A stretch of 33,663 nucleotides of DNA from Myxococcales bacterium. GTDB taxonomy: Bacteria; Myxococcota; Myxococcia; Myxococcales; JAJYLH01. The DNA lies in the NCBI GenBank assembly GCA_021787845.1, contig JAJYLH010000057.1, positions 1-33,663 on the forward strand, read 5' to 3'. The first letter of the stretch is position 1; each line of letters starts with the position of its first letter. The notes beneath the pieces are model-generated. The model was not told the DNA's origin. It worked only from the letters and a program-made list of their open reading frames with translations, and did not search any database. Position numbers and translations under genes: made by a program. This document shows, piece after piece, positions 3,757-26,362 of this stretch.

Positions 3757-5985
3757 TCACCGCCTCTTGTGCTTGGCGCGAAGCAGAAGGTCGATCCGCC
3801 GCGTCACGGGGTCGGCGCTCGCCACCTCGACCTCCACCCGGTCGCCGATGCCGAACGACCGCGTGCCCGCCTCCAGCCGGTGCCGCCGCTCGTCGAAGCG
3901 CGTCCGCGGCGAGAGCGTCTCGGCCCGCACCAGCCCTTCGACGAACGGGTCGTCCAGCTCCACGAACAGCCCCAGCTCCGCCACCGACGCCACCGTTCCC
4001 GGGAAGCGTTGACCGGTCCTGCCCTGCATCAGCGCCGCCGCATAGTAGGCGTCGATCTCGCGCTCCGCGCTGGTCGCCGCCCGCTCCCGTTCCGAGCAAT
4101 GCACCGCCACCTCCTCCAGCGCCCGCGCGTCGCGCGCGCGCGCCTCCCGGGAGGGCACCCGTCCGGCACGAGCCCAGTGGCCCTTCAGGAGCCGGTGGAC
4201 CACCAGGTCCGGATAGCGTCGGATGGGCGAGGAGAAGTGGAGGTAACCCTCGGCCGCGAGCCCGAAGTGGCCGATGTTCTCGCTCGAGTAGACCGCCTGC
4301 ATCATCGAGCGCAAGAGGAGGTGGTGGAGCGCGCGCTGCTCGGGGCGGCCCTCGACTCGCTCCAGGAAATCGTTGAGCGCCATCGCCGAGACGCTTCCTT
4401 TCGCGTCGAGCGGGATGTCGTACCCGAACGCGCCGGCGAGAAGGGCGAACGTGCGCAGCTTCTCCTCCTTCGGCGGCCCGTGGACGCGGTAGACGACCGG
4501 CAGGTCGCGCTCGGCGAAATAGCGCGCGACCGCCTCGTTCGCCGCGAGCATCAGCTCCTCGATCAGCCGGTGGGCGTCGGTCCGCGGCTGGCGCTCGACG
4601 GCGACGACCGGCCGCTCGGGCGCCGGCCCGAGCTTCACCTGCATCTCCGGGAGGTCGAAGTCCAGCGCTCCCCGCGCGCGCCGCCGCTCGGTCAGCCTCT
4701 TCGCGAGCTCGCCGGCGACGAGGAGCATCTCCCGGAGGTGACGCAGCTCGGGAACGCTGTCGCCATCCAGGAGCGCTGCAACCTGGCCGTAGGTGCAGCG
4801 CGCGCGGCTCTTCATCACCGCGGGATAGAGGTCGGTGTCGAGCGTCGCGCCTCGTTCGTCGAGCACCAGGTCCGCCACCAGGCAGAGCCGCTCGGCGTCC
4901 GGATTGAGCGAGCAGATGCCGTTCGACAGCCGCTCCGGCAGCATCGGCAGGACGTGGCCGGGGAAGTAGACGCTGGTCGCCCGGCGGCGCGCCTCCCGGT
5001 CGAGCGCGCCGTTCTCGGGCACGTAAGCGCTGACGTCGGCGATGGCGATCACCGCCCGGAAGCCGTGCGAGGTGCGCTCGACGAAGACCGCGTCGTCGAA
5101 ATCGCGCGCATCCTCGCCGTCGATGGTGATGAGCGGCAGCGCCGTCAGGTCCCGGCGGCCCAGCCGATCCCCGGCAGCGATTTCGAGCGGCACGGACTCG
5201 GCCGCCCGGAGCGCGTCCGGCGGGAACGAATCGGAGAAGCCCTCTCCGTACGCGACCGACAGCACCTCCGCGTCCGGGTCGCCCGGCCGGCCCAGGCGCG
5301 ACAGGACCTTCCCCGTCAACCCGAGCCACTTGTCGCCGCGCGACCGCCCACCGCGCTGACCATGAGCGCTCTCGGCAGGCGGTGCCGCGAAGTCCAGGAT
5401 CTTCACCCGCACCACGTCCCCATCGGCGGCCACTCGCGTCTCGGGAACGGAGATCGGCGGCAAGGCGCGGTCACGCGGTTCCACCCACGCCCCGGCCCCC
5501 GCCACGACCCGATAGGTGCCCACCGCGAGCACCCGCCGCCGCTCGATGACCTCCACCGCTCTCGCCAACCGGCGGCCGTCCCGCCCCACGCCGGCCCGCG
5601 CCCGGACCAGGTCGCCGTCGAGCGCGCCGGCCATCGCCGGGGGCGGCACGAACAGGTCGTCCCCGCCGTCGAGCGGATTGATGAAGCCGTAGCCGTCCCG
5701 GTGCCGGCGCAAGACCCCTTCGACGACACCGGGCGCCTTCGCGGCCGTCTGGTGAACGGGAGCGCTATTGCATATCGGCTCCGCTTCCACCTTCGGCGGG
5801 GCCGGGCGCGCGGCGAATCGCTTGCCGAGGCCCGCGATGCGGCCTTCCCGAACCAGCGCCCGCAGCTCCCGCCGCACGAGCGGCTCGAGGCCCGGGTCGA
5901 GGCCTCCGCGCACGAGGAGGTCCTCGATGCCCAGCGGCCGACCGCGAGCGCTCTCGAGCACCTTGACCAACAGCTCACGGTTCAA
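3757..5985 (-). CDS. rnr: ribonuclease R (3'-5' exoribonuclease)
   Basis: RNase R degrades structured RNA from the 3' end in the cytoplasm, in mRNA decay and RNA quality control. The 742-residue protein shows the usual order. There is an N-terminal winged-helix region (1-60), then an OB/cold-shock segment around residues 87-130 (VVEGVLRRHRDGYGFI). The RNB catalytic domain has the four-Asp motif DGEDARDFDDA (Asp289, 295, 297, 298) and the signature FSSPIRRYPDL. A C-terminal S1 domain (GTVASVAELGLFVELDDP) and a basic tail KHKRR complete it. I place the start at TTG 5985: GGAGG stands 5 bases upstream and the winged helix begins right there. Further in-frame upstream sequence runs antisense into the neighbouring lipoprotein gene and is not conserved-looking. 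A GTG at 6060 is a weaker alternative. Confidence 0.92.
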   Translation of the reverse strand: MNRELLVKVLESARGRPLGIEDLLVRGGLDPGLEPLVRRELRALVREGRIAGLGKRFAARPAPPKVEAEPICNSAPVHQTAAKAPGVVEGVLRRHRDGYGFINPLDGGDDLFVPPPAMAGALDGDLVRARAGVGRDGRRLARAVEVIERRRVLAVGTYRVVAGAGAWVEPRDRALPPISVPETRVAADGDVVRVKILDFAAPPAESAHGQRGGRSRGDKWLGLTGKVLSRLGRPGDPDAEVLSVAYGEGFSDSFPPDALRAAESVPLEIAAGDRLGRRDLTALPLITIDGEDARDFDDAVFVERTSHGFRAVIAIADVSAYVPENGALDREARRRATSVYFPGHVLPMLPERLSNGICSLNPDAERLCLVADLVLDERGATLDTDLYPAVMKSRARCTYGQVAALLDGDSVPELRHLREMLLVAGELAKRLTERRRARGALDFDLPEMQVKLGPAPERPVVAVERQPRTDAHRLIEELMLAANEAVARYFAERDLPVVYRVHGPPKEEKLRTFALLAGAFGYDIPLDAKGSVSAMALNDFLERVEGRPEQRALHHLLLRSMMQAVYSSENIGHFGLAAEGYLHFSSPIRRYPDLVVHRLLKGHWARAGRVPSREARARDARALEEVAVHCSERERAATSAEREIDAYYAAALMQGRTGQRFPGTVASVAELGLFVELDDPFVEGLVRAETLSPRTRFDERRHRLEAGTRSFGIGDRVEVEVASADPVTRRIDLLLRAKHKRR

Positions 5986-8287: not shown

Positions 8288-9331
8288 TTACGGCTGCCCT
8301 CCCGCTGGGGAGGAGCGCCGCGCGGACGCGTACTCGCGCACGATGATCTGCGCTGCCGCGGCGACGGGCACCGCGACCAGCGCCCCTACCACCCCGGCGA
8401 ACTCCCCCAGCATCAACACCGCCATCAGGCTCACCAGCGGGTTGATGTGGACGGTCCGCCGGTAGACGAGCGGCCCCAGGACGTTCCCCTCCAGCGCGTC
8501 GTAGACGACGAAGTACGCGGCGACCGCCAGCGCCTGCCAGGGACCGCCGGTCGCCCACGCGAACAGCGCGATCGACGTGTGGACGACGGCCGGACCCGCG
8601 TAGGGCACGAGGCTCGCGAAGCCCGAGAGAATCCCCAGCGCGAGGAAGTACGGCACCCGGCTGAGGGCGAGGAAGGTCGTGGTCAGGGTCGCGTTGATGG
8701 TGCAGATGAGCGTCAGCCCCGCGAGGTAGCCGCCCACCGACCGGTAGACCGAACCCAGCACCCGGCGGTAGCGCTCCCGGTGCTCCTGGCGCGTCTGGAG
8801 AACGGCAGCGCTCACGAGCTCCTCGCCGAAGATCACCATGAAGACCGAGAGGAAGAGGACCATCGCCAGCCAGACCACTGCGCCGATGGCTCCTCCGACC
8901 GCGGCGATCGCCGGCGGCGCCACCTCCTTGAGGGACGGCGGCGCTTGTGCCCGCCTCGCGCCCTCGGCCAGATGGAACGCCCGCTCGAAGTGCCGGACGA
9001 CGGACGCGCTCTCGACGTGCCGGATGAGCACCGGCGCCCGCCGGGCCAGGTCGGCGGCCTGGCCGGCGGCTCGGGGAACCAGGGCGAAACCGGCGCCGGC
9101 CAGGGTCCCGAGGAAGGCCGCCACCACCACCGCCTTCGCCGCCCGCGCCGAAAGCCTCCACCTCGCCAGCGCCTCCACCGCGTGCGCGAGCGCCACCGCG
9201 ACCACCGCCGCCGCGAGAATCGCCGCCACCGCCGCCCGCGCGCGATAGAGAAGCCACGCGAACGCCACCACGCCCAGCCAAACCAGCGCGATTCTCAAGG
9301 ACGCCCGAACGGTGATCGGCTCTTTCTCCAC
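8288..9331 (-). CDS. AI-2E family (PerM-like) membrane permease
   Basis: A protein of about 347 residues matching the AI-2E/PerM exporter family (formerly UPF0118). Paired helices open the protein, a soluble stretch follows in the middle, and the C-terminal half carries the conserved part: SGFASLVPYAGPAVV, then YDALEGNVLGPLVYRR and VHINPL. Family members move varied small molecules or ions, and the name does not prove autoinducer-2 transport. I propose the GTG at 9331, just before the first membrane helix. A TTG at 9412 would add 27 residues, and neither has a strong ribosome site. It is the last gene of a minus-strand run, but a terminator separates it from the response regulator upstream. 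Confidence 0.82.
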   Translation of the reverse strand: MEKEPITVRASLRIALVWLGVVAFAWLLYRARAAVAAILAAAVVAVALAHAVEALARWRLSARAAKAVVVAAFLGTLAGAGFALVPRAAGQAADLARRAPVLIRHVESASVVRHFERAFHLAEGARRAQAPPSLKEVAPPAIAAVGGAIGAVVWLAMVLFLSVFMVIFGEELVSAAVLQTRQEHRERYRRVLGSVYRSVGGYLAGLTLICTINATLTTTFLALSRVPYFLALGILSGFASLVPYAGPAVVHTSIALFAWATGGPWQALAVAAYFVVYDALEGNVLGPLVYRRTVHINPLVSLMAVLMLGEFAGVVGALVAVPVAAAAQIIVREYASARRSSPAGGQP

Positions 9332-9447
9332 GTCGCGCGAGGCCTCGCCCAAGCCAACTTGCGCGCGCGCCCAGCGGCCGCCAAGCGGGCTTGCGTGGAG
9401 GATCCGTAACAATGCGAAGCCCTGGCGCGGATGGAGTCAGGATGCGC

Positions 9448-9474
9448 AAAAGGCGGTCTCGCCAAGAGGACCGC
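9448..9474 (-). terminator. rho-independent terminator after the response regulator
   Basis: Read on the minus strand, GCGGTC pairs with GACCGC around a 10-base loop and is followed by C and TTTT. It begins 6 bases past the stop codon of the single-domain response regulator. This is the only hairpin in the window with a clear T-run behind it. Confidence 0.65.
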
Positions 9475-9479
9475 AAGCG

Positions 9480-9857
9480 CTAAGCGGGCGCGGAGCGAGG
9501 CGGACGACGCAGCAGCTCCAGGAGGCGACGGGTCCCGAAGGGCTTGGCGAGAAGCTCCACCCCGCGAGGCACCTCGACCGCATCGTCGCCGGTCATCACC
9601 ACGACCAGCGTCGCCGGATCCGACCGGTGCAGCTCCCCGGCGAGCTTCGCGCCGACCGAGCCTTCGCTCAGGTGGGCGTCGAGAATCGCCGCGTGGTAGC
9701 GGCGCTCGCGCCAGCGGGTGCGCACGATCTCGACGCCGTCTGCGACCACGACCTCGAAGCCCTCCGAGCGCACCAGGTCCGCCAGCGCGAAGCGCAGATC
9801 GTCGTCGTCCTCCACAAGGAGGACGGCAGCACTCTCGGTGGGTTCGGGGCGCTCCAT
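9480..9857 (-). CDS. single-domain response regulator (REC only)
   Basis: A 125-residue receiver domain with no output domain. Expected landmarks are present: the acidic pocket VEDDDD (Asp17, Asp18), phosphoacceptor Asp60 in AAILDAHLSEG, Thr89 in VVVMTGDD, and Lys105 in LLAKPFG. Such stand-alone receivers act in phosphorelays or bind partner proteins. No kinase gene lies directly beside it; the nearest is the haem-c sensor kinase about 2.6 kb away, which has its own NarL-type partner. The ATG at 9857 is the first plausible start before the domain. The in-frame upstream extension overlaps the zinc-ribbon gene and is not credible. A terminator follows its stop. Confidence 0.82.
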   Translation of the reverse strand: MERPEPTESAAVLLVEDDDDLRFALADLVRSEGFEVVVADGVEIVRTRWRERRYHAAILDAHLSEGSVGAKLAGELHRSDPATLVVVMTGDDAVEVPRGVELLAKPFGTRRLLELLRRPPRSAPA

Positions 9858-9940
9858 CGGGCCAACAGGAGAGTGCAGTCGGACCGCGCAGGCGTCAAGA
9901 AAGCACAAGGCCGATCTGTCGGCGATTCGACCTGGCGGCG

Positions 9941-10459
9941 CTAGCCACCGTGCCGCGCGCGACAGTGGGGGCAGAAGAACGGCTGCCGCCAGGATGCCTG
10001 GAGCTTGAGCTCGCCGCCGCAGCACAGGAGCGGTGCCGCCTCCATGTCGTCCGGCTCGGGCGGCAGGTCTCCCGGCGCGGGCTCCGGGGGCACCGGGATG
10101 AACGTCAGGTACGGGTTCTCGTCGAGGTGGCGCTCGACTTCCTTGAGCTGCACATAGCGGACTTCGCCGGCGGTCGCGCGCGCCCGCGCCTGGACGTACT
10201 CGCGCTGCGCCGCCGTCAAGAACCTCTCGGCGCTGGCGGCGTGGCCGCAATAGGGGCAGAAGCGGTTCGGGAGAGCGGGAAGCTCCTGGGCGTTCGCGTG
10301 GGCGAGCGCCAGCACGAACACGGCGTGCAGGACCGGCTCGTCGGCGCCGCGAGCGGGCATCTTGAACTGCCGGGAACAGGCCGGACATGCCCGGCGCACG
10401 AACCCCGCGGGGTCTTCCGCCAGCCTAAGCCGTTCGATGTCCGGCCCCGACGGCGCCAT
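9941..10459 (-). CDS. zinc-ribbon protein of unknown function
   Basis: A 172-residue soluble protein with four cysteine pairs: CPAC near residue 25, CPYC near 69, CC near 146 and CPHC near 163. The first two pairs can make one zinc ribbon and the last two another. The middle holds a helical linker (AAQREYVQARARATAGEVRYVQ) and a Pro- and acid-rich stretch. There is no signal peptide, so it is probably cytoplasmic. I do not recognise a named family. Nucleic-acid or protein contacts are typical of zinc ribbons, but that would be a guess here. It lies just upstream of the response regulator on the same strand with an 83-bp gap, so co-transcription is possible. Confidence 0.7.
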   Translation of the reverse strand: MAPSGPDIERLRLAEDPAGFVRRACPACSRQFKMPARGADEPVLHAVFVLALAHANAQELPALPNRFCPYCGHAASAERFLTAAQREYVQARARATAGEVRYVQLKEVERHLDENPYLTFIPVPPEPAPGDLPPEPDDMEAAPLLCCGGELKLQASWRQPFFCPHCRARHGG

Positions 10460-11551: not shown

Positions 11552-11908
11552 CTAGTGCTTATGGCACTGCATGCACTTGACCGGCGCCTTCGGGTGGGTC
11601 GCCAATTCCTTCTCGTGGCAACCCTTGCACCGGGTGTGCATCGCGTCCTTGAGGCTGGGCTTCTTTCCCTCGGCCTTGGCCTTGTGGCAATTCGTGCAGG
11701 CGCCGGCCTGGACGCCCTTGTGGTGGCAGGTCGTGCACTTGAGGTGGAGGGCCATGTAGTGCTTCTGGTGGGGGAAGGTGACGTTCCCCGGCTTGGCCTT
11801 GAACGTCACGCTCTTCGGGGGGGCCTTGGCGGTGCCGGTCGCCGGCAGCGCTGCCGCCAGGAAGATGGCGGCCCCCAGGATTCCCAGAATGCGTCCGATG
11901 CGGTTCAT
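11552..11908 (-). CDS. periplasmic four-haem cytochrome c (c3/c7 type)
   Basis: A 118-residue cytochrome with a signal peptide (MNRIGRILGILGAAIFLAAA, cleavage near residue 26). It has four CxxCH haem-binding motifs: CTTCH at 58, CTNCH at 71, CKGCH at 94 and CMQCH at 112. An early FPHQKH supplies histidines typical of the sixth ligands of c3/c7 cytochromes. It should be a soluble periplasmic electron shuttle. Related c7 proteins such as Geobacter PpcA carry three haems and c3 proteins carry four; this one has four with regular CxxCH spacing. GAGGAG lies 8 bases before the ATG. It could accept electrons from the membrane cytochromes encoded at 18.4-20.3 kb; that link is inferred. Confidence 0.9.
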   Translation of the reverse strand: MNRIGRILGILGAAIFLAAALPATGTAKAPPKSVTFKAKPGNVTFPHQKHYMALHLKCTTCHHKGVQAGACTNCHKAKAEGKKPSLKDAMHTRCKGCHEKELATHPKAPVKCMQCHKH

Positions 11909-12437
11909 TGCGCTTCTCCTCGGTGTCGATTCACCGCGACATGGGACCCAGCGTGGGCCCGTTTATCCCGACCTCGGCGTTAGACGACCGGCCGGTGCCA
12001 GACATTCTCGGGAGTCGGCCGCGAGGCCGACCGGGTGCCCGCCCGCTCCGGGCCGCCTCGCGCGCCGCGAGCGCCAGAGCTCGGGCCGGGCGCAGTCCGC
12101 ACGCGGCTCCACGGGGCATCGTTCACCACGTCGTCTCTCATGGAGGAGGCACGCTAGCGCCGCCCCGTCGACTCGTCAACTCTCGGATCGCCGACGGCGG
12201 CGATGGCGACGAGCAGGCCGGCTCGCGAGCGGCAAGAAGTCGGCGGGCCTCGCGGGGTTCCCCGGCCGGGCGATTTCCACGGTCGCTCATGAGCCGCTGG
12301 TGCTGCGGGAGTCGATTCCTTAAGGCCACCCGAGCGCGGGTGCCCGCTGGCAGGGGCTGGAAGACGGCGAGGGTGCCCTTACGGGATCCGAGGCGCCTGT
12401 TTTGCCCGATTCTGTCGGCAGGTGTAACAAGCCGTCG
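11909..12437. other. intergenic region upstream of two divergent redox genes
   Basis: A gap of 529 bp between the four-haem cytochrome (minus) and the haem-c sensor kinase (plus). I see no credible gene in it. Near the right side TTGCCC and TGTAAC stand 16 bases apart, just upstream of the kinase, and could be a weak -35/-10 pair. A small hairpin CACCC/GGGTG lies at 12327-12342. As the control region of both genes it is a sensible place to look for NarL-type sites, but I cannot name one. Confidence 0.4.
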
Positions 12438-14786
12438 ATGCCCTGCTCACCGGGCCGACGCCGCTGGCAGAACAGCCTCTACGCGCGAGCTGCCCTCTTC
12501 TGGATTCTCGGGAGCGCGAGCCTCATCGGCGCGGTGACCGCGCTCTCGACGATGATGCTCGACGAATCGGTCGACCGCCTGCTCAAGGAACGGACCGACC
12601 TCGCGCGGACGGTCGGAGTGCTGCTCGAGGACCGGCTGGCGGCGGATCTCGATCGGCTTGCCGAGGTGGTCAGTCCGCTCGTCGGGGGGCGGCAGGGCTT
12701 CCTCGATACTCAAGCGCTCCAGGCGAGCTTGAAGCGGGAGGTCGGCGGAACGATCTTCTCCCAGGGCGCGCTGGTCTTGGACGCGAAGGGCGCACTGCTC
12801 GCCGCGGTGCCGCCGCAAATCGCCGACCTGCGGCCGGCGCTCGCTCTCCCGGGCCCCGGACGCCTCGCCGGCGGCGAGAAGCTCAGCATCACCCCTCTCG
12901 TCTACCCGCCGAAGGGCTCGCGACCGGTTCTCGTCCTGGTGAAGGCGCTCTTGACGCCGAACGGGAGCGTCGCCGCTTACCTGGCGGGCGTCTTGAGCCC
13001 GTCTTCGACCGACCTCCTCCACGCCCTGGCGCGCCAAGCGGGGACCGGCCACGCCGACTTCGACCTGGTGGACGCGAACGGGGTGGTGGTCGCCTCGACC
13101 GACCGGCACACCCTCTTTCGCAGCGCCGACCACGGCGAGGTCCTCACCCGGGCCATCGCTCAGCACCAGGACCTGCGCGGCCAGTGCCACCGCTGCCACC
13201 TCGCGGCGAGCCACCGGACCATGCGCGCGACCGACGTGATGGCCTTCGCGCCGCTGCCGACGCTCGAGCTCGGCGTCGTCGTCCACCAGCCGGAGAAGGA
13301 GGCGCTGGCGCCCGCCTTCACCCTGCGCCGGCGGCTCGTCGGCCTGGGCGTGTCGTTCGTCGTCCTCTTCCTGCTCTTCGCGGGCGCCTCCGTCCGCAGC
13401 GTGGTCCATCCGGTCACCCGGTTGACGCGGGCGGTCCGCGAGCAGGAGAACGAGAGCGGTCGCCTCCACCTGCCGACTTTCGGGCGCGACGAGGTGGGGA
13501 CGCTCGCGCGCACCTTGGAGAAGTGGCGGGGGAACCTGATGGATTCCCTGGCCGCGGTCCGGCGCCACCAAGAAGCGCTGCACGAGGAGATCGAGGCGAC
13601 GAGACGCCACCTGGAAGCGCTCCAGTTCATCGCGGCGCAGGCGATGCTCGGCGCCGACGCCCAGGCGATCGTCGAGCAGGGGCTCACCCGGACGCTCGAC
13701 CTCCTGGGCCTCAGGGCGGGCGCCTTGCGGGTGCGGCACGAGGAGCGGACGCTCCTCGCCCGCCGCGAGCTGTCCGAGAGCGTTGCCGAAGAGCTTCTGG
13801 GCCGGTGCGAGCGGGCCCTCTGCCGCGCGGCCGGGTCCGACCCGGCCTTGGGCTTCGCGGTCTGCCAGAGCGGCCGGACGCCATCCAGCCTGCCTGAGGC
13901 GGACCCGCCTCTCGAGACCGTCCTCGGAGCCTTCCACCGGGCGCCGCAAGGCCTGGAGATCAGTTGCGTCCTCGCCGACCCGGAAGCGCGGGGGCCGGTG
14001 GAAGAGCGCTGGGTCCAGTCGCTGCTCTCCCACCTCGGCATCAGCGTGATGAACCGGCTCTTGCGCCAGAAGGCGCTGGAGCGCCAGCAGCTCCAGGCCG
14101 AGTACCTGCGCCGGGTGCTGGACGCCCAGGAGGACGAGCGCCGCCGGGTCGCGCGGGAGCTGCACGACACGGTGTCGCAGGACCTCGCGGCGCTGCGGCT
14201 GGAGATCGAGCGGCTGCAGAAGAGAGCGTCGGACCCGTCCCTCCGGGCGAAGCTGCACGACCTGGAAGACCGGGCCCACGCGATGCTCCTCGCGGTGAGG
14301 GGCACCGTTCTCGACCTGCGTCTGAGCGTTCTGGAGAACATGGGCTTTCTGCCGGCGCTCCAGTGGCACCTGGAGCGCATCGAGCGCGAGCACCAGGTCC
14401 GCGGGACGCTTGCCGTCGACGGCGAGGAGGTGCGTCTCGCCTACGAGCGCAGCGTCACGCTCTTTCGCATCTTCCAGGAGGCGCTGCAGAACGCGATTTC
14501 GCACGGGCACCCGGAGCACGTCTTCGTCACGGTCGCCTTCTCGCCCGCGCGGGTCCTTCTCACCGTCGAGGACGACGGGAGCGGTTTCGACCTCACGGCG
14601 CTGCGCCACCGCGACCCGGCGGAGCACGGGCGCGGCCTCGGCCTGACCGGGATGGAGGAGCGGGCGCGGCTCTTGGGCGGCACCGTCGAGATCTCCAGCC
14701 GGCCGCAAGAGGGCACGGTCGTCAGGGTAACGGTTCCGCTGCCGCAAGGCGAGAGGGCTCAAGCCCCCATCGAGGAGAGCGCATGA
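12438..14786 (+). CDS. NarX/LiaS-type histidine kinase with a haem-c periplasmic sensor
   Basis: A membrane sensor kinase of 782 residues from the chosen ATG; numbers here count from an in-frame TTG at 12402, 12 codons earlier. The first membrane helix is at about 30-52. A periplasmic sensor region (53-305) holds QCHRCHLAA, a CxxCH haem-c motif (Cys262, Cys265, His266). The second helix is at about 311-333, followed by HAMP (334-385), a coiled coil, a GAF-like domain (about 405-550), and a HisKA_3 dimerisation domain with ARELHDTVSQ (His588). The HATPase_c domain has its N box at EALQNAISHG, then DDGSGFD and GRGLGLTGMEER. The haem motif suggests redox or gas sensing in the periplasm. Its ATGA stop overlaps the response-regulator start, so the two are translated together. 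Confidence 0.9.
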   Translation: MPCSPGRRRWQNSLYARAALFWILGSASLIGAVTALSTMMLDESVDRLLKERTDLARTVGVLLEDRLAADLDRLAEVVSPLVGGRQGFLDTQALQASLKREVGGTIFSQGALVLDAKGALLAAVPPQIADLRPALALPGPGRLAGGEKLSITPLVYPPKGSRPVLVLVKALLTPNGSVAAYLAGVLSPSSTDLLHALARQAGTGHADFDLVDANGVVVASTDRHTLFRSADHGEVLTRAIAQHQDLRGQCHRCHLAASHRTMRATDVMAFAPLPTLELGVVVHQPEKEALAPAFTLRRRLVGLGVSFVVLFLLFAGASVRSVVHPVTRLTRAVREQENESGRLHLPTFGRDEVGTLARTLEKWRGNLMDSLAAVRRHQEALHEEIEATRRHLEALQFIAAQAMLGADAQAIVEQGLTRTLDLLGLRAGALRVRHEERTLLARRELSESVAEELLGRCERALCRAAGSDPALGFAVCQSGRTPSSLPEADPPLETVLGAFHRAPQGLEISCVLADPEARGPVEERWVQSLLSHLGISVMNRLLRQKALERQQLQAEYLRRVLDAQEDERRRVARELHDTVSQDLAALRLEIERLQKRASDPSLRAKLHDLEDRAHAMLLAVRGTVLDLRLSVLENMGFLPALQWHLERIEREHQVRGTLAVDGEEVRLAYERSVTLFRIFQEALQNAISHGHPEHVFVTVAFSPARVLLTVEDDGSGFDLTALRHRDPAEHGRGLGLTGMEERARLLGGTVEISSRPQEGTVVRVTVPLPQGERAQAPIEESA

Positions 14787-15448
14787 GGTCGCCGGTCCGA
14801 CTGGTGCTCGCCGACGACCACACGGTGCTCCGGGTCGGCCTGCGCGCCTTCTTCGAGGAGCAGACCGATCCGGGCTTCGTGGTGGTGGGCGAGGCGGCGG
14901 ACGGCGAGCAGGCGATCGTGCTGGTGGAGAGCACGCACCCGGAGCTCTTGCTCTTGGACATCTCGATGCCCGGCCTCGGCGGGCTCGGGACCACCATCGA
15001 GCTGCGGCGGCGCGGCCTCAAGGTTCCGATCCTGGTCCTCACCCAGCACGCCGAGTCCGTCTACCTCAAGCGGCTCCTGGAGGCGGGAGCGAACGGGTAC
15101 ATCCTGAAGAGCGCGCGCGGCGAGGAGCTCCTGGCGGCGATTCGGGCGGTCCTGAGCGGGGGGACCTACATCGAGCCGAGCCTGGCGAGCGATTTCGTCT
15201 CCCAGGCGCTCGGGGAGGAGACGGCGACGAGCGTCGAGGACGCCTTCCAGAAGCTGACGCCGCGCGAGCGGGAGGTGTTGAAGCTCGTCGCGGAGGGGTT
15301 GAGCAACAAGGAAATCGCGCAGAGCCTGGACGTCGCGGTGAAGACCGTGATGGCGCACCGGGCGAACCTGATGGACAAGCTCGGCATCCGCAACCACTCG
15401 AAGCTCGTGCAGTTCGCGATCAAGATGGGGCTGGTCGCGGTCGAGTGA
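14783..15448 (+). CDS. NarL/LuxR-family response regulator
   Basis: A 221-residue response regulator. The receiver domain (1-125) has acidic residues Asp11 and Asp12, phosphoacceptor Asp59 in LLLLDISMPG, Thr87 and Lys109. The LuxR-type helix-turn-helix (about 156-218) reads LTPREREVLKLVAEGLSNKEI, with the recognition helix in VKTVMAHRANLMDKLG. Its ATG overlaps the kinase stop by ATGA, with GAGGAG just upstream, so it is the cognate partner of the haem-c kinase. It should bind DNA as a dimer once phosphorylated. The targets are unknown; the cytochrome genes on either side are the obvious candidates. Confidence 0.93.
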   Translation: MRSPVRLVLADDHTVLRVGLRAFFEEQTDPGFVVVGEAADGEQAIVLVESTHPELLLLDISMPGLGGLGTTIELRRRGLKVPILVLTQHAESVYLKRLLEAGANGYILKSARGEELLAAIRAVLSGGTYIEPSLASDFVSQALGEETATSVEDAFQKLTPREREVLKLVAEGLSNKEIAQSLDVAVKTVMAHRANLMDKLGIRNHSKLVQFAIKMGLVAVE

Positions 15449-15474: not shown

Positions 15475-15951
15475 CTACCGCCGCTTCAACCCGTCGAGCA
15501 CCCGCTCCAGCTCCGTCGGAGCGAGGGTCGAGATCACCCAGGCGGTCCGGCCGTCGAAGGAGCGGGAGAGCTGGTGCCAAGGCGGAGCGCAGCCGCTAGG
15601 CGTCGACGCGGGCAGGCACCTCGCGGCGGCGCGCATCGCGTCGGGCACCGGGGAACCGATTCCGAGCCAGAGGACCGGTCCCGGTGTCCGACGGGGTTCG
15701 ATCTCCATCCACCAGCCCGGCCGCCGGCCGTCGCGCCGGAAGACCCGCGCCGGTGGCCACGAGAGCGCTTCCGGCAGGTAGGAGGGCAGCAGCACCGGTT
15801 CCATCGAGCGCTCGAGCGCGCGCACCGAGCCGACCACCACCCACCCGACCGAGCGGGAGGGCCCCAGGAGGAGCCGGTCGGCGGCCAGCACCACCGCCGC
15901 GAGGACGATGGTCCATAGGAGCGCTTTCAAGGTACTCGCCAGGCGCTTCAT
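15475..15951 (-). CDS. small membrane-anchored protein of unknown function
   Basis: A 158-residue protein with one N-terminal hydrophobic helix (about 9-30, LLWTIVLAAVVLAADRLLL), then a domain that should lie outside the cytoplasm. The ATG at 15951 overlaps the TGA of the peptidase gene upstream (ATGA), so translation is coupled and the two products likely act together. Two cysteines (CLPASTPSGC) sit close enough to form a disulphide. I do not recognise the domain. It ends convergent with the NarL-type regulator gene, 26 bp away. Confidence 0.7.
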   Translation of the reverse strand: MKRLASTLKALLWTIVLAAVVLAADRLLLGPSRSVGWVVVGSVRALERSMEPVLLPSYLPEALSWPPARVFRRDGRRPGWWMEIEPRRTPGPVLWLGIGSPVPDAMRAAARCLPASTPSGCAPPWHQLSRSFDGRTAWVISTLAPTELERVLDGLKRR

Positions 15952-16916
15952 CCGAGAGACCAGAGGAGGAGGGCCAGGAGCAGGCTGGCACCGGTGACGA
16001 AGAGCGGCGGCGCTGCCCAGGGGCGTGAGGGCTTGAGCAGGCGTTCGACCCGGTCGCGGGTCGCGGCGGCATTCGCGCGACGAACCACCTCGGCGCGCGC
16101 GCGCCTCCAGGGGGTGGCGTCGGCCGGCGCCGGCGCGGGGGTGCCGTGGGCCTTGAGGATGGCGCTCGCGAGGGCGGCGGGCCGGTCGAGCACCCGCGCC
16201 GCGACCGCGTCGCAGGCGGCCTCCTCCGCCTCCACGAACTCGCGAAAGAGGGCGAGCACCGCCGGGTTGAACGCCTGGAGGCAGCGCGCGAGCCACACCC
16301 CGAAGAGGCGCAGGTTGCCGCCGCGGGCGTGGTGCGCGAGCTCATGGGCCACCGCGCCGTCGAGCTCCTGGTCGTCGAGCTGGTCGAGCAGCCCCCGCGA
16401 GAGCACGATCCGATTTTCGGCGAACCCGTGGAGCGCGGAAACCCGGTCGTCGACCTCGAGGCGGAAGATGCGCGGGAGGCGGCCGCGGGGCAGCGTCCAT
16501 CCCGCGGCGCGGAAGGCGGCGAGCACCCGGGCGAGCGCGGCGTCGAGCCGATCGTCAGCGCTCTCGGTAGCCGGCTGCGGTCTCATCCGGCTTCGCAGCG
16601 CGGGCACCACCTCCTGGAAGAGGAAGAGCAACACGGTGCCGCCGAGGAGGGCCGCCGCCACGACCGCCGTCGCGACGCCCCCTTCGCCGACGAGCACGGC
16701 CCATTCGTCCGCACGAAACACGCTCAGGCGCTCGGGCAAGGTGGGCAGGCCGGCGAGGCGCCAGGCGAGAAGGAGGGGCGGCAGCAACACCGCTCGGCGC
16801 AGGAGGTCAGACCAGGCGGGAGCCGCAAGCGCAGCCGCCAGCCGCCGGAGCCCGGCCATCCACACGAGGGCGACCACCCCCTGGGCCAGATTCTGGATGA
16901 CGGCCCGCAGGAGCAT
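15948..16916 (-). CDS. M48/M56-type membrane metallopeptidase
   Basis: A 322-residue integral membrane zinc peptidase. Helices at about 8-30, 40-55 and 80-100 precede a cytoplasm- or membrane-facing catalytic region. The zinc motif is AHELAHH (His191, Glu192, His195). The third ligand is probably Glu232 in EEAACDAVAARVL, matching the ExxxD pattern. A last helix lies at the C-terminus (LFVTGASLLLALLLWSL). The layout resembles BlaR1/M56 or short M48 peptidases. BlaR1-type proteins normally sit with a BlaI/MecI repressor; none is here. Instead it is coupled to a small anchored protein. I chose the ATG at 16916 because the first membrane helix begins there; the in-frame extension upstream is low-complexity and runs over repeats. 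Confidence 0.82.
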   Translation of the reverse strand: MLLRAVIQNLAQGVVALVWMAGLRRLAAALAAPAWSDLLRRAVLLPPLLLAWRLAGLPTLPERLSVFRADEWAVLVGEGGVATAVVAAALLGGTVLLFLFQEVVPALRSRMRPQPATESADDRLDAALARVLAAFRAAGWTLPRGRLPRIFRLEVDDRVSALHGFAENRIVLSRGLLDQLDDQELDGAVAHELAHHARGGNLRLFGVWLARCLQAFNPAVLALFREFVEAEEAACDAVAARVLDRPAALASAILKAHGTPAPAPADATPWRRARAEVVRRANAAATRDRVERLLKPSRPWAAPPLFVTGASLLLALLLWSLG

Positions 16917-17438: not shown

Positions 17439-17888
17439 TCCGGCCGTTGCTGCCGTCGTGGCCTCCGCTCGGAAAGGCTCGCGGAGAAATCCGACCTGAG
17501 CTAACCGGAAAGCCCTTCAGGCAGTTCGCCCGACCAGGTTCCTGCCTGCTGGACGGCGCGGTCGTCTCGCTGGGCGACGCAGGCGATTGCCGCTACTCCA
17601 CCGCGCAGCCAGAGCCGCTTCCCGCCCGCATCGGACGCACGAGCGTCGGTTCCGATTTCCCACTCCACCCAGGACGCGCCGAGCGATAAATACTTTCGTC
17701 CATCCCGCATTCCTCCCCAGTGCTTCCCTGTCCGGTGGGCGCTCGGGCGCGATCGTCCTGCCCTCTAGGTAATCGTACCCAGCGCCTCTCGGGCCGTGTT
17801 CCGATTGGGCCTTCACGGCCCGATGCCGACACTCGCGGGTGGAAGGAGCGGGGATCATGCGAGCCCACCCGATCCCCAGGAGGACGCC

Positions 17889-18378: not shown

Positions 18379-19458
18379 ATGACTCCCTCATCCCAGCACG
18401 CCAGGCAGTCAGGACACGCGGCGCTCGGGGTCCTGGCGGCGCTTCTCGCGACCGGAGCGCTGGCGCCGACCGCGAGGGCGCTTTCGACCGACGACTGTCT
18501 GGGCTGCCACGCGAACGACCACGACTCGGTGGTCAAGCTCGCCGACGGCTCGAGCTTCCAGGTCTTCGTCGATCCGCGGAAGTGGAAGAGCTCGGTGCAC
18601 GGCGGCAAGCTCGCCTGTACCGATTGCCATCTGAACATCACCGACTATCCGCATCCGGCGGTGACCGCGACGAGCGCGCGGGCGTTCGAGCTCGCCCAGG
18701 GCCAGAGCTGCAAGCGGTGCCACTTCGCCTTCTACACGCGGATGCTCGACGGCATCCACTACAAGCTCCTGGAGGCGGGTAACGAGAAGGCGCCCACTTG
18801 CGTCGACTGCCACGGCGCCCACGCGATCACCAACCCGCAGGTCCCGCGGCTGTCGATCACCCAGCGCTGCGCCAAGTGCCATCGGCGAATCGTCGAGACC
18901 TTCAAGAAGTCGGTCCACGGCGAGGCGCTGGTCGACGGCAACCCGGACGTCCCGGTCTGCACCGACTGCCACGGCGCGCACGACATCCACGACCCGACCA
19001 GGCCGGCGTTCCACACCGCCTCCTACGAGCTGTGCGCCAAGTGCCACGCCGACGAGAAGCGGATGGCGAAGTACGGGCTGAGCCCGGCGGTCGTCACCAC
19101 CTACCTGCAAGACTTCCACGGCCACTCGAACCATCTCTACCAGATGGGCGCCGGCCGGCCCGGCCGCCCGATGGCCACCTGCACCGACTGCCACGGCGTG
19201 CACGACATCCAGGCGGTCGAAAAAGGGCAGACCCGGGCCGAGATGCAAGCGCGGATCATCCAGCGCTGCCGCCGCTGCCACGACAATGCGCCGCTCCAGT
19301 TCGCCTCCGCCTGGATGTTCCACTACGAGCCGACGCTCTCCAAGGCTCCTTTGGTGTGGGCCATCAAGTGGGCCTACCGGTTCATCATTCCCACCATCGT
19401 TCTGGGTCTCGTCCTCCACATCCTGCTGCACCTGTTCCGGGTCCGCACGCACCGCTAA
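18379..19458 (+). CDS. nine-haem membrane-anchored cytochrome c (CbcL-like haem part)
   Basis: A 359-residue multihaem cytochrome. A signal peptide (about 1-35) is followed by nine CxxCH motifs at residues 40, 80, 111, 141, 164, 194, 219, 268 and 297. A C-terminal helix (about 333-352, FIIPTIVLGLVLHILLHLF) should hold it in the inner membrane with the haems in the periplasm. Many extra histidines (for example SVHG, GIHY, DFHGHS) can give bis-His ligation. With the next gene it resembles Geobacter CbcL, which joins a nine-haem domain to a cytochrome b in one chain; here the parts are separate genes 12 bp apart. Electron transfer from the quinone pool to periplasmic carriers is the likely job. 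GGAG lies 6 bases before the ATG. Confidence 0.9.
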   Translation: MTPSSQHARQSGHAALGVLAALLATGALAPTARALSTDDCLGCHANDHDSVVKLADGSSFQVFVDPRKWKSSVHGGKLACTDCHLNITDYPHPAVTATSARAFELAQGQSCKRCHFAFYTRMLDGIHYKLLEAGNEKAPTCVDCHGAHAITNPQVPRLSITQRCAKCHRRIVETFKKSVHGEALVDGNPDVPVCTDCHGAHDIHDPTRPAFHTASYELCAKCHADEKRMAKYGLSPAVVTTYLQDFHGHSNHLYQMGAGRPGRPMATCTDCHGVHDIQAVEKGQTRAEMQARIIQRCRRCHDNAPLQFASAWMFHYEPTLSKAPLVWAIKWAYRFIIPTIVLGLVLHILLHLFRVRTHR

Positions 19459-19470
19459 GGGAGAGACGCC

Positions 19471-20301
19471 ATGACTCGCCATCCCAAGCTCAAGCGGGGG
19501 AAGAACGGCCAGATTCTGGTCGAGCGATTCTCCCTTCCCCGCCGGCTCGAGCACGCGCTCGCGCTCTTGACCGTCACCACCCTCTTCCTCACCGGGCTCC
19601 CGCAGATTCTCGACGGCAAGGTCGGCGCCACGATGCTACGGCTCTTCGGCGGTCTGGACGCCGCCCGGCACATCCACCGCGTCGCCGGCCTCGTCCTCTG
19701 CGTGCACGCGGCGGCACACATCACGGCGAACTTCATCGGGGTGGTCACCGGACGGATGCGGCTCGCCCTCCTGCCGACCACCGAGGACGTCAAGGACGCG
19801 CGCGACACCTTGCTCTACTACTTCGGGTTCCGCAGCGAAGGCCCGAGACTGCCCAAGTTCGACTACCGGCAGAAGTTCGAGTACCTGGGGATGGTTTTCG
19901 GCGGGCTCGCGATGGTGGCCTCCGGGCTCGTTCTGCTCTATCCGCAGGCGACCGCGTCGCTCCTCCCGGGGGAGATCATTCCGGCCGCGCGGGTGCTCCA
20001 CACCAACGAAGCGGTGCTCGCGTTCCTGGTCCTGATCATCTGGCACGTGTACGGGTCGCACCTGTCCCCCGAGGTGTTCCCGATCGACAAGAGCATCTTC
20101 ACCGGCTACATCACTCTCGAGGACTTGAAGCGCCAACACGCGCGCGAGTACGAGCACCTGTTCCCCCATGGAGCACCGGTGCTGCCTGGCGAGAAGGCTC
20201 CCGCTCCCTCCCCGGCCCCGCCGCCGGCCGCCGCATCGCAAAGCCCGGGACTGCCCCCGGGCTCCGAGACCGGAACCGATGGGATGAACCGCTCCGCCTG
20301 A
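19471..20301 (+). CDS. di-haem cytochrome b membrane subunit
   Basis: A 276-residue inner-membrane protein like the cytochrome b subunits of formate dehydrogenases and Ni,Fe hydrogenases. About four helices carry paired histidines suited to two b haems: His28 (RRLEHAL), His67 and His69 (ARHIHRVAG), His79 and His83 (CVHAAAHI), His177 (RVLHTNEA) and His192/His197 (IIWHVYGSHLSPE). The end is a soluble, Pro-rich tail, which is probably flexible. It follows the nine-haem cytochrome after 12 bp, with AAGGGAGAG as ribosome site, so the two are almost certainly one complex. It would oxidise menaquinol and pass electrons to the c haems, or do the reverse. No catalytic (molybdenum or hydrogenase) subunit is nearby. 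Confidence 0.88.
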   Translation: MTRHPKLKRGKNGQILVERFSLPRRLEHALALLTVTTLFLTGLPQILDGKVGATMLRLFGGLDAARHIHRVAGLVLCVHAAAHITANFIGVVTGRMRLALLPTTEDVKDARDTLLYYFGFRSEGPRLPKFDYRQKFEYLGMVFGGLAMVASGLVLLYPQATASLLPGEIIPAARVLHTNEAVLAFLVLIIWHVYGSHLSPEVFPIDKSIFTGYITLEDLKRQHAREYEHLFPHGAPVLPGEKAPAPSPAPPPAAASQSPGLPPGSETGTDGMNRSA

Positions 20302-22750: not shown

Positions 22751-25700
22751 ATGAAGCGCACCGTGCTGTTCCTTCTCGTCGCCGCGGTCTCGAGCCTCGC
22801 CCGCGCGGACGCCGCCAGCCCTGCCGCGCCCATCGTTCCGATGGAGCTGCCCACCCAGGGCTATCTCCTCGACTCCACCAACAAGCCCGTCACCCAGCAG
22901 GGCTTGAAGATCACCTTTTCGCTCTATTCGTCGGATACGAGCCCCACGGCGATCTGGCAAGAAAGCGATACCGTCGACGTCGTCAACGGCTACTACGCCC
23001 TGGAGCTGGGCCAGGTCGCGCCGCTGTCCGCGGAAAGCCTGGCGACACCGCTCTTCCTCGGCGTCGCGATCGACGGCGGCCAGGAGTTGCAGCCCCGGCT
23101 GCAGGTCGGGTCGGTTCCCTTCGCCCTCGAGGCCGAGCTCGCCCATGACCTTGCGGGGGGCACCATCACCGGCGCGACCATCACCAACTCGAGCGTCGAC
23201 GCGACCCAGGTCTCGATCGACGGCACGCCGGTCATCGACTCGAGCGGGCAGTTCCTCGGCACCGCGCACGACGCCGAGAACCTGGGGGGCGTTCCCGCCG
23301 CGAGCTACCTGAGCTCCAACGGCGGGGACGGCTCCAAGCTGTCGAACCTGAATCCGGCAGCGCTCTCGCCCGGCACGGCGAGCATCGACATCACCGGCAA
23401 CGCCGCGACCGCCACCACCGCCCAGGATTTCTCCGGCAGCCTGAGCGGCGACGTCACCGGCACCGAGCACGCAACCGTGGTCAGCGGGCTCGAGGGCGTC
23501 TCGGTCTCCTCCGCCGCGCCGAACGCGACGGACGTGCTGCGCTTCGACGCGGCCACGAGCTCGTGGAGCCCGTCGCTCGACGCGTCGAGCTTCAACGGGC
23601 GCACGGGCGACATCGTGCCCCAGCCGGGCGACTACAGCTTCGACCTGATCGCGGGACAGGCGACCGACAGCCAGCTCGAGGGGCCACTCGTGACCGCGCT
23701 CACCGGGGGCAACGGGCTGACGGTCACCACGACCAATCCGACCGGCGTGGACCGGGCGAGCCTCGCGCTCAAGCTCGACGGCTCGACCCTGGCGAACGGC
23801 GCGAGCGGGTTGAGCGTGAACCTTGGGAACGCCAACACCTGGACGGGAGCGCAAGCGTTCTCCAGTGGCGCGACCTTCGGCGCCGGGGCCAAGTTTTCCA
23901 CCTCGACCGGAGACGCCCTCGACGTGACAAGCGCCGATGGCAACACGAAATACCTTGCGGTCGGCTCCACGGGAGCGCTGACGATCAGCGGACCAGCGAC
24001 GTTCAACGGGGGCATCAGCGCCTCGACCTTCACCGGAAACGTGTCCGGCACCGCGTCCAACGTCACCGGAACGGTGGCGGTCGTTAACGGCGGCACGGGG
24101 GTGAGCTCGGTCGGGAGCGGCAGACTGCTCATCGGCGCGGGCACGAGTCCCCTGGGCAGCATCGCCGCGCCGCTCCAGGCCGATCAGGTGCTGCGCTCCA
24201 GCGGCGCCGGCACGAACTTCGGGTGGGGCAGCTTGACGGTCGGGGACCTGCCGACCGGCATCCCCAATGCGAACCTCGCTCACTCCACCATCACCATCGA
24301 CACCCCGAACACCTCGGGCCTCACGGGGGGCAGCAGCACTCCTGTCTCCCTGGGGGGGGGCCTCTCCTTGTCCATCGCGAGCGGCGGCGTGACCAACTCG
24401 ATGTTGGCGAATCCGTCGTTGACCATCACCGCCGGCCAAGGCCTGACGGGCGGCGGGACCCCGGCGCTGGGGGGCAACGCCACCCTGGCCGCGAATCTCA
24501 ACCGAGACGCGACCCTGGTGGGAAACGGCGGCTCGTCGAGCCTCGGCCTGGATTTGACGCACGCGAATAACTGGACGGCAGCGCAAACGTTCTCCGGCAG
24601 CGCTACCGTTTCGACGACCGGCAACACGACGAGCCTCACCGTCGACCAGACCAGCCACGCGAGCCCGACCGCGGACGTGCTCGACGTGAACAGCTCGGGC
24701 GGCGCGACGAAGTACTTCACGATCGATTACGCCGGCAACGCGACGTTCTCTGGCACGGTCAATGCTTCCCAGTTCGTCGGCTCCACGGCGACGGGCGTGT
24801 CCGTCAACGCACCCCTGACGGGCGACGGGACGACGGGCTCGCGAATCACGATTCCCCAGGCCAATGGGTCGACCGACGGCTACCTGGCGCAAGGCGACTG
24901 GACCACCTTCAATTCGAAAGCCGCGAGCGGCGCGAACCACGACATCACCTCGCTGACGGGCTTGACGACAGCGCTGCCGGTGAGCGAGGGCGGCACGGGC
25001 GGGAGCGCGGCGCCCACGGCGGGCGCGGTGGCCTACGGCATCGGGAGTAGGTACGCGTTTTCGGTGGCAGGTGCCTCGGGAGAGCTGCTGGTCTCTGGCG
25101 GCGCTGGCGCTCCCACGTGGGGCCAGCTCGCCAGCATGGAGACCGACCCGATCTTCACGGCGTCGGCGGCCGACGGCATCACGTCCGGCAACATCACGAA
25201 CTGGAACACAGCTTACACGGATAGGATGGAGTGGAACGGCGGCTCGACGGGCTTGAACGCGACGACGGGCCGGGCCTCGCTTGGGCTCGGCGCGCTGGCG
25301 ACCGAGAGCGCGGTCACGTTCGGCCAGCTTCCCTCAGGAGGCTGCACGAACGGGCAAGTGCTGAAGTGGAACGGCTCGACCTGGGCCTGTGCAACCGAGA
25401 CCGACCCGGTTTTCGCAGCGTCCGCCGCCAGCGGGATCACCAGCACCGACATCAACAACTGGAACGCGGCGTACGGGAACGACCTGGAGTGGAACGGCGG
25501 CTCGACCGGCCTGAACGCGGCGAACGGGCGGACCTCGCTCGGCCTGGGGTCGCTGGCGACGAAGAGCTCGATTGCAGCGAGCGACATCACGCAGAGCGGC
25601 TGCACGAACGGCCAGATGCTGAAGTGGAACGGCTCGACCTGGGCCTGCGCCGCCGAGACCGACCCGGTCTTCACCGCGTCCCCCGCCGACGGGATCGCCG

Positions 25701-26362
25701 GCACTGACATCACCAACTGGAACACGGCGTACGGGCACGACCTGGAGTGGAACGGCGGCTCGACGAACCTGAACGCGGCGACCGGGCGAACCTCGCTTGG
25801 CCTGGGGTCGCTGGCGACGAAGAGCTCGGTCGCGGCGAGCGACATCGCGCAGAGCGGCTGCACGAACAGCCAGATGTTGGAGTGGAACGGATCGGCTTGG
25901 GCCTGCGCAACCGAGACGGACCCGGTCTTCACCGCGTCCGCCGCGCATGGGATCACGAGCCCGGACATCACGAGTTGGAATGGGAAGCTCGACGCTGCCG
26001 GTGGGACCATGACCGGCGCGCTGACGCTCGGCCCGGGCGGCGGCACGGTTCCCTTGACCGTCAATCCCTCCACCACCCCGAGCGTCGATTTGACCGACTG
26101 GCAGGTGGGCGGCTCCACCGTGGCGTCGGTCAGCTCGGCCGGCGACCTCCACACAAATGGTGTGGTCGGGTTCGGCGAGAGCCAGCTCAAGCTACAGGTT
26201 TGGGAAGCCGCTACGACCGTGTCTTTGACGACCTGCACCGGCGCAACTGGCGCCTGCGGCAACGGCTACTGCCTTGGTGCGTACGACGGGTCTGCGATCC
26301 CCGTGCAAAAGAGCTGCACGAGCGCCTCAGCGAAGTACTGCATCTGCGTTGGCTCGCCCTGA
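22751..26362 (+). CDS. large secreted fibre-like repeat protein
   Basis: A 1203-residue exported protein: the signal peptide MKRTVLFLLVAAVSSLARA cleaves near residue 20. Residues about 30-140 form a domain (QGYLLDSTNKPVTQQGLKI to LQVGSVPFALEAELA) shared with the paralogue at 28.3-29.8 kb. The middle is Gly/Ser/Thr/Asn-rich with many short TGN-type strands, as in phage-tail-fibre or adhesin stalks, including repeated TGGNGLTV/TAGQGLTGGG turns. Residues about 825-1080 are an 86-residue tandem repeat. The last 60 residues hold six cysteines (TCTGATGACGNGYCLG and KYCICVGSP), a likely disulphide-bonded tip. It is probably displayed or released as a fibre. The target is unknown. An upstream in-frame ATG at 22688 would bury the signal peptide, so I use 22751. 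Confidence 0.82.
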   Translation: MKRTVLFLLVAAVSSLARADAASPAAPIVPMELPTQGYLLDSTNKPVTQQGLKITFSLYSSDTSPTAIWQESDTVDVVNGYYALELGQVAPLSAESLATPLFLGVAIDGGQELQPRLQVGSVPFALEAELAHDLAGGTITGATITNSSVDATQVSIDGTPVIDSSGQFLGTAHDAENLGGVPAASYLSSNGGDGSKLSNLNPAALSPGTASIDITGNAATATTAQDFSGSLSGDVTGTEHATVVSGLEGVSVSSAAPNATDVLRFDAATSSWSPSLDASSFNGRTGDIVPQPGDYSFDLIAGQATDSQLEGPLVTALTGGNGLTVTTTNPTGVDRASLALKLDGSTLANGASGLSVNLGNANTWTGAQAFSSGATFGAGAKFSTSTGDALDVTSADGNTKYLAVGSTGALTISGPATFNGGISASTFTGNVSGTASNVTGTVAVVNGGTGVSSVGSGRLLIGAGTSPLGSIAAPLQADQVLRSSGAGTNFGWGSLTVGDLPTGIPNANLAHSTITIDTPNTSGLTGGSSTPVSLGGGLSLSIASGGVTNSMLANPSLTITAGQGLTGGGTPALGGNATLAANLNRDATLVGNGGSSSLGLDLTHANNWTAAQTFSGSATVSTTGNTTSLTVDQTSHASPTADVLDVNSSGGATKYFTIDYAGNATFSGTVNASQFVGSTATGVSVNAPLTGDGTTGSRITIPQANGSTDGYLAQGDWTTFNSKAASGANHDITSLTGLTTALPVSEGGTGGSAAPTAGAVAYGIGSRYAFSVAGASGELLVSGGAGAPTWGQLASMETDPIFTASAADGITSGNITNWNTAYTDRMEWNGGSTGLNATTGRASLGLGALATESAVTFGQLPSGGCTNGQVLKWNGSTWACATETDPVFAASAASGITSTDINNWNAAYGNDLEWNGGSTGLNAANGRTSLGLGSLATKSSIAASDITQSGCTNGQMLKWNGSTWACAAETDPVFTASPADGIAGTDITNWNTAYGHDLEWNGGSTNLNAATGRTSLGLGSLATKSSVAASDIAQSGCTNSQMLEWNGSAWACATETDPVFTASAAHGITSPDITSWNGKLDAAGGTMTGALTLGPGGGTVPLTVNPSTTPSVDLTDWQVGGSTVASVSSAGDLHTNGVVGFGESQLKLQVWEAATTVSLTTCTGATGACGNGYCLGAYDGSAIPVQKSCTSASAKYCICVGSP
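24352..24360 (+). repeat. run of nine G inside the fibre gene
   Basis: Nine consecutive G bases encode part of Leu-Gly-Gly-Gly-Leu in the fibre protein. A one-base slip would shift the frame and truncate the protein before its tandem repeats and cysteine-rich tip. Runs of this kind drive phase variation in some bacteria; whether this one varies is unknown. Confidence 0.7.
25227..25980 (+). repeat. 258-bp tandem repeat inside the fibre gene
   Basis: Units start at 25227, 25485 and 25743, exactly 258 bp (86 codons) apart. Each begins EWNGGST and runs through GRTSLGLGSLATKSS, CTNGQMLKWNGSTWAC and ETDPVFTASAADGI to NWNTAYG. The third unit diverges after its ETDPVFTASAAHGIT portion. A partial unit (its last third, ETDPIFTAS...) precedes the first near 25140. 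Each full unit has a CTNGQ...WAC cysteine pair. Confidence 0.85.

Follow-up and report, generated by a model that had tools for sequence, protein, structure and literature searches.

A putative haem-c double-Cache sensor kinase encoded beside a nine-haem cytochrome operon in Myxococcota

The stretch of DNA analysed here (hereafter the window; 33,663 nucleotides, positions 1 to 33,663 of contig JAJYLH010000057.1 from the Myxococcales bacterium assembly GCA_021787845.1) encodes a sensor histidine kinase and a NarL-type response regulator that are situated between genes for multihaem cytochromes (Table 1). The kinase begins at a TTG (12402) or an ATG (12438), a choice that alters only the cytoplasmic N-terminal tail, and its reading frame contains only one CxxCH, located between two transmembrane (TM) segments, in that half of a double-Cache (dCache) sensor which lies nearer the membrane. 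A first-pass annotation of the locus had drawn attention to a single CxxCH (Cys262, Cys265, and His266, counted from the TTG at 12402), and CHRCH is encoded exactly there, at nucleotides 13185-13199; by composition, about 0.0009 such motifs would be expected in a periplasmic stretch of 255 residues. Because of the hydropathy of TM1 and TM2, the Arg-rich N-terminus, and the HAMP linker directly following TM2, the motif is predicted to be periplasmic, and its earlier assignment to a periplasmic sensor region agrees with the hydropathy and domain order, which place it outside the cytoplasmic membrane. The HisKA_3 and HATPase_c domains of the kinase, along with the adjoining receiver-LuxR helix-turn-helix regulator, are those of a NarX/UhpB-type (HisKA_3) two-component system. 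Orthology to NarX or NarQ was considered and rejected, as the scores of 72.9 and 94.5 bits compare with NCBIfam equivalog cut-offs of 578 and 553, respectively. While the HisKA_3/HATPase core and the LuxR-type regulator are held in common with NarX/NarQ-NarL, the input of the window kinase is a dCache domain with a predicted haem, unlike the helical periplasmic domain through which NarX and NarQ sense nitrate and nitrite.

Table 1. Features of the kinase locus and its surroundings (window coordinates)
Feature	Position	Strand	Remarks
Four-haem class III/c7-like cytochrome	11552..11908	-	4 CxxCH; divergent from kinase
Sensor histidine kinase, 794 amino acids	12402..14786	+	TM1, double-Cache with one CxxCH, TM2, HAMP, stretch of ~160 amino acids without domain assignment, HisKA_3, HATPase_c
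TM1, residues about 30-53	12489..12560	+	Hydropathy
Periplasmic dCache sensor, residues 54-307	12561..13322	+	Pfam dCache_1, AlphaFold (AF2), Foldseek
His244, candidate distal haem ligand	13131..13133	+	18 residues N-terminal of first CxxCH Cys
CxxCH (CHRCH), residues 262-266, haem-c attachment motif	13185..13199	+	His266 predicted as proximal ligand
TM2, residues about 308-338	13323..13415	+	Hydropathy
HAMP linker, residues 331-373	13392..13520	+	Under Pfam cut-off in window, strong in relatives
HisKA_3 dimerisation/phosphoacceptor domain, residues 579-642	14136..14327	+	RELHDTVSQD
HATPase_c, residues 685-781	14454..14744	+	
NarL/LuxR-type response regulator	14783..15448	+	Receiver and GerE/LuxR domains; 4-nucleotide overlap with kinase stop
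Single-TM protein, ~158 amino acids	15475..15951	-	No known family; conserved module member
M56 (BlaR1-like) membrane metalloprotease	15948..16916	-	HELAH motif; conserved module member
Candidate regulator-binding site, CTAGGTAATCGTACCC	17765..17780	+	Partly dyad (GGTA-N4-TACC); ~110 bases ahead of 17889
Small membrane protein, 151 amino acids	17889..18344	+	Conserved module member; first gene of cytochrome operon
Nine-haem c-type cytochrome	18379..19458	+	9 CxxCH; C-terminal TM
Cytochrome b561/formate dehydrogenase gamma-like membrane subunit	19471..20301	+	

Related kinases were sought in 60 genomes of the window's order, and those of one Myxococcales family (f6, probably Anaeromyxobacteraceae) have a sensor half that also matches that of the window; the CxxCH is present in every such f6 kinase. 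The aligned f6-type sensors are 24-31% identical to the window sensor, and just 25 of 370 columns are invariant among 18 aligned sensors, in all of which the two Cys residues and the His of the CxxCH are unchanged. A sensor-profile survey of 195 genomes of the window's phylum (30 matches at E<=1e-5) returned, outside f6, three true CxxCH members (genomes G163, G192, and G119), a decayed copy reading CRSCG (G092), and three ordinary Cache proteins or unrelated sequences (G060, G068, and G184). A pattern scan of genome contigs, the one scan that reached beyond the window's phylum, added two loci each from Oligoflexia and Myxococcota (the sequence of locus L088, one of the latter, is identical to that of G192). 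The retention of the CxxCH among orthologues, which the first-pass annotation had named as a check, was found in 26 of the 27 kinases on the resulting tree, with CRSCG in the single exception. Both features expected of c-type haem binding are present, namely a CxxCH in an exported/periplasmic region and c-type cytochrome maturation genes in the host, as the window genome encodes CcmF/CcmC-like proteins (Cytochrom_C_asm matches, contig C83). The conservation of the motif across relatives and this maturation system uphold the earlier reading of the protein as a haem-c sensor, and the prediction that the outer domain of the kinase carries one covalently attached haem c is strongly supported by the sequences.

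A candidate for the distal ligand of the predicted haem is His244, one of a small number of sensor residues that do not vary when four diverged kinases are aligned. A His at position -18 from the first Cys is found in the window and in L085, L086, L087, L088, L089, and L091 (all with CHxCH), and hence in 7 of 7 CxxCH members of the window's His-type group; the f6 kinases have a Cys at this position instead, shifted to -17 in three of them by the deletion of one residue. The window kinase belongs to a supported six-row His-type clade that extends into Bdellovibrionota, and the His/Cys label requires three changes on the kinase tree, which is the minimum possible, vs ten in shuffles; since near-copies make clustering easy, this serves as supporting evidence only. 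The candidacy of this position derives from the exchange of His and Cys at a fixed spacing, which fits a haem ligand and which a metal site could likewise show. His244 is probably the distal ligand, and a six-coordinate bis-His haem would result (Cys/His in f6).

By sequence and predicted fold, the window sensor is a dCache domain that resembles ordinary dCache proteins. Pfam dCache_1 is matched by 17 of 18 and 4 of 5 aligned sensors; the window sensor itself scores 19-21 bits, under the 45-bit gathering cut-off, and relatives reach E=1e-13. A PDB sequence search with the window sensor alone gave no match, and a search with the family profile returned HAMP and weak dCache entries. AlphaFold was run twice with five-row alignments, the second time on the membrane-proximal subdomain alone, and a Foldseek comparison of the model retrieved the dCache structures of KinD, Tlp3, DctB, and PctA (E down to 8e-8), driven by the membrane-distal subdomain. 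These four proteins, which have the double-Cache fold in common with the window sensor according to Pfam, hidden Markov model, and Foldseek comparisons, bind small ligands without a cofactor. Two other assignments were rejected: a single-Cache module, in view of the ~255-residue sensor, the dCache_1 matches, and the dCache structures among the Foldseek hits, and the DUF3365/sCache_heme family (PF11845, Tll0287-like), to which the window kinase gave no match at E<=0.1 and which was absent from the families listed for 18 aligned sensors at E<=1 and for 5 at E<=10.

The known haem-c sensors GSU0582, GSU0935, and Tll0287 are single Cache domains (PMC12889525, PMC8396549), and a likeness to the haem-c sensors of Geobacter, invoked in the first-pass annotation, could not be maintained because those are single-Cache DUF3365 proteins and the window sensor is a double Cache unmatched by the DUF3365 model. 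What the sCache_heme/DUF3365/Tll0287 family does share with the window sensor is a periplasmic Cache fold, one CxxCH for haem c, and frequent fusion to HAMP/kinase modules. In GSU0935, Met60 and the proximal His144 are distant in sequence (PMC8396549), whereas the candidate ligand in the window lies 18 residues ahead of the CxxCH. The Desulfovibrio vulgaris chemoreceptor DcrA also has a periplasmic haem-c domain, with a reported response to redox potential and oxygen, as reviewed in PMC8396549; it differs in being a methyl-accepting chemotaxis protein, while the window protein is a NarX-type kinase. The DUF3365 family has been called the first known case of a covalently attached cofactor in a Cache domain (February 2026 preprint, PMC12889525), and a survey of the periplasmic sensors of A. 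dehalogenans reported haem motifs in three Geobacter-type chemoreceptors (PMC3831638). No description of a haem-c double-Cache kinase was found in the literature searched, outside which most subscription journals fall, and priority is accordingly not certain.

The flanking cytochromes are as the first-pass annotation described them, with four CxxCH in the upstream protein and nine in the downstream protein that is paired with a cytochrome b. The kinase, NarL regulator, small membrane protein, M56 peptidase, nine-haem cytochrome, and cytochrome b561 form a module shared by about 20 genomes, with its genes arranged in one of two ways. That of the window is split, with the kinase and regulator on the plus strand, the small protein and M56 peptidase on the minus strand, and the small membrane protein, nine-haem cytochrome, and cytochrome b on the plus strand; this exact gene order is also found at L089 (G163, another Myxococcota family of the same class) and at L087 (Oligoflexia, Bdellovibrionota). 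The f6 genes lie on one strand in the order ferredoxin-like Fe-S protein, NrfD, GcvH-like protein, three-haem c7 cytochrome, and GcvH-like protein, followed by the shared six (nine-haem cytochrome, cytochrome b561, M56 peptidase, a ~190-residue protein (p190), haem kinase, and NarL regulator). Stops and starts often overlap within this operon, and the order from the nine-haem cytochrome to the NarL regulator on one strand is kept in every complete f6 operon retrieved. Across the 195 genomes, the kinase was detected in 27, the nine-haem cytochrome in 27, and both in 24, with contig ends or incomplete genomes accounting for half of the six mismatches (G046, G079, and G081). The link between kinase and cytochromes is consequently firmer than was originally claimed, being backed by gene order in two arrangements, a second phylum, and co-occurrence. 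The products of 18379 and 19471 are proposed to constitute a quinol dehydrogenase. In CbcL of Geobacter, one protein combines a c domain of nine haems with a b domain of two (PMC9129911), and the window pair can be likened to it by parts only, the same parts being encoded by two genes here.

Several further features of the module were recorded. The M56 BlaR1-like protease and the small single-TM protein (15475-16916, minus strand) accompany the kinase in nearly all loci. Downstream, the module is extended by a seven-haem cytochrome and a second cytochrome b in Oligoflexia (L087:16143-17986); in G163 (L089:898-2886), the extension encodes an eight-haem protein of the Cytochrome_cB type. In the f6 NrfD/cytochrome operon, the two proteins flanking the three-haem c7 cytochrome are lipoyl-carrier-like (GcvH-like; L041:3020-3715 and 4120-4815).

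The DNA ahead of the cytochrome operon was also compared. The 16-base element in front of 17889 has a counterpart in the equivalent place at L089 (CTAGGGAATCTTACCC) and a partial match at L087 (TAGGTATTCTACC), and the pattern derived from the window and L089 sites themselves is matched exactly only once in each of the two 6-Mb genomes, that of the window and G163. Within the window, the element occurs once, ahead of 17889, and ahead of neither the kinase nor 11908; the NarL-like sites that had been envisaged as shared upstream of 11908, 12438, and 17889 thus reduce to a conserved element ahead of 17889. At the f6 loci (L038-L054 and L092), TTGCGC/GCGCAA occurs at 7.3 per kb ahead of the nine-haem operon vs 1.3 per kb in the remaining intergenic DNA of these loci, which makes TTGCGC a candidate regulator site in f6. 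It was not seen in the sequences inspected upstream of the window genes, and no site is thus common to the window group and f6.

Taken with the same electron-transfer genes alongside it in several bacterial groups, the kinase is a good candidate for a redox switch of a respiratory chain, and we consider it probable, though well short of assured, that the haem-c dCache kinase senses the periplasmic redox state and that the NarL-type regulator adjusts the nine-haem/cytochrome b operon. The haem c would be attached via Cys262 and Cys265 in the membrane-proximal Cache half, with His266 as the proximal and probably His244 as the distal ligand, and the signal would most likely be how oxidised or reduced the periplasmic electron-transfer chain is. 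The Cache domain may respond when the haem itself is oxidised or reduced or when its distal ligand is exchanged; HAMP would relay this response to the NarX-type core of the kinase, after which transcription of the neighbouring operon would be adjusted by the NarL-type regulator. In sCache_heme, a six-coordinate Cys/His domain is redox-protein-like, and a domain without an axial residue binds NO tightly and releases it slowly (PMC12889525). By this comparison, the conserved distal ligands favour redox sensing over NO sensing, and we infer both this signal and direct control of the operon.

A number of observations weigh against this proposal. Although the membrane-distal subdomain of the AlphaFold model is good, the predicted local distance difference test score of the membrane-proximal, CxxCH-containing subdomain is below 50 in both runs. 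In the L094 kinase (8444-10267), CRSCG replaces the CxxCH, the His remains at -18, and the module is otherwise intact; as kinase, regulator, and cytochromes are retained there without the motif, the haem appears dispensable in at least one lineage. The 16-base element was not found at L085 or L088 and is partial at L087, the kinase and regulator of G192 (L088) have no nine-haem gene nearby, and the co-occurrence counts are dominated by one family of related genomes that are not phylogenetically independent. Another reading is a genuine haem kinase whose main target lies elsewhere, with the cytochromes serving as a functional partner (e.g., by donating electrons to its haem) or merely reflecting co-transfer. 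We regard this as rather unlikely: the kinase and cytochrome operons are indeed separate transcription units in the window, and kinase and regulator occur without nearby nine-haem genes at L088 and L090 and beside an 11-haem cytochrome instead at L091, yet the module is kept across two phyla and in two arrangements of its genes, its members co-occur, and a conserved element precedes the cytochrome operon.

The signal could also be a gas, with NO (or O2/CO) displacing a weak distal ligand of the haem c and thereby switching the kinase, which we deem unlikely. NarL-type regulators often serve nitrogen-oxide respiration, which counts in favour of such a sensor, as does the similar role proposed for signalling-linked sCache_heme domains and DcrA. 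Tight NO binding is documented for a signalling-fused sCache_heme domain of P. azotoformans (PMC12889525), and CO and NO are bound by GSU0582/GSU0935 with displacement of Met60 (PMC8396549); however, nearly all members of the present family have a strong candidate distal His/Cys, whereas the NO-type domain has no axial residue (PMC12889525), and none of the window genes searched was recognisable as encoding a nitrite or NO reductase. It is very improbable that His/Cys-x17-CxxCH represents a periplasmic site for a metal (e.g., Zn) or for thiol-disulfide chemistry in which the CxxCH is fortuitous. Four conserved Cys/His residues would also suit a tetrahedral metal, and AlphaFold yields no confident haem-like pocket, but the exact CxxCH, including its His, has been retained through large divergence, the location is periplasmic, c-type cytochromes adjoin in nearly every locus, and c-type maturation genes are present in the genome.

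A broader proposal may be advanced tentatively, i.e., that these kinases constitute a previously undescribed "dCache_heme" family, separate from sCache_heme, whose own distal His/Cys would make the haem a redox-potential sensor that governs how strongly a quinol dehydrogenase of nine-haem cytochrome and cytochrome b is expressed in Myxococcota and Bdellovibrionota. A second, double-Cache haem design with a distal-ligand position would suggest that haem entered Cache sensors more than once. Which inner-membrane quinol dehydrogenase is employed by Geobacter and like bacteria depends on the potential of the acceptor (PMC8227773), and a haem kinase tied to a pair of CbcL-like genes offers a directly testable candidate for the means by which such a potential may be read.

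Elsewhere in the window, a 1203-residue protein with no Pfam match is encoded at 22751-26362 (plus strand). Several f6 genomes also carry, near the module, a second type of putative haem-c kinase (L045:14121-15656, plus strand; L046:12471-13988, plus strand; L048:3541-5046, minus strand; and L049:3843-5345, minus strand). This type has ~505 amino acids, with one periplasmic domain that holds the only CxxCH (e.g., SESCARCHGTQSHVNGWLDL) and with a HisKA domain, and is followed by an NtrC-type regulator; at L045, a gene for glutamyl-tRNA reductase (hemA) lies ahead of it.

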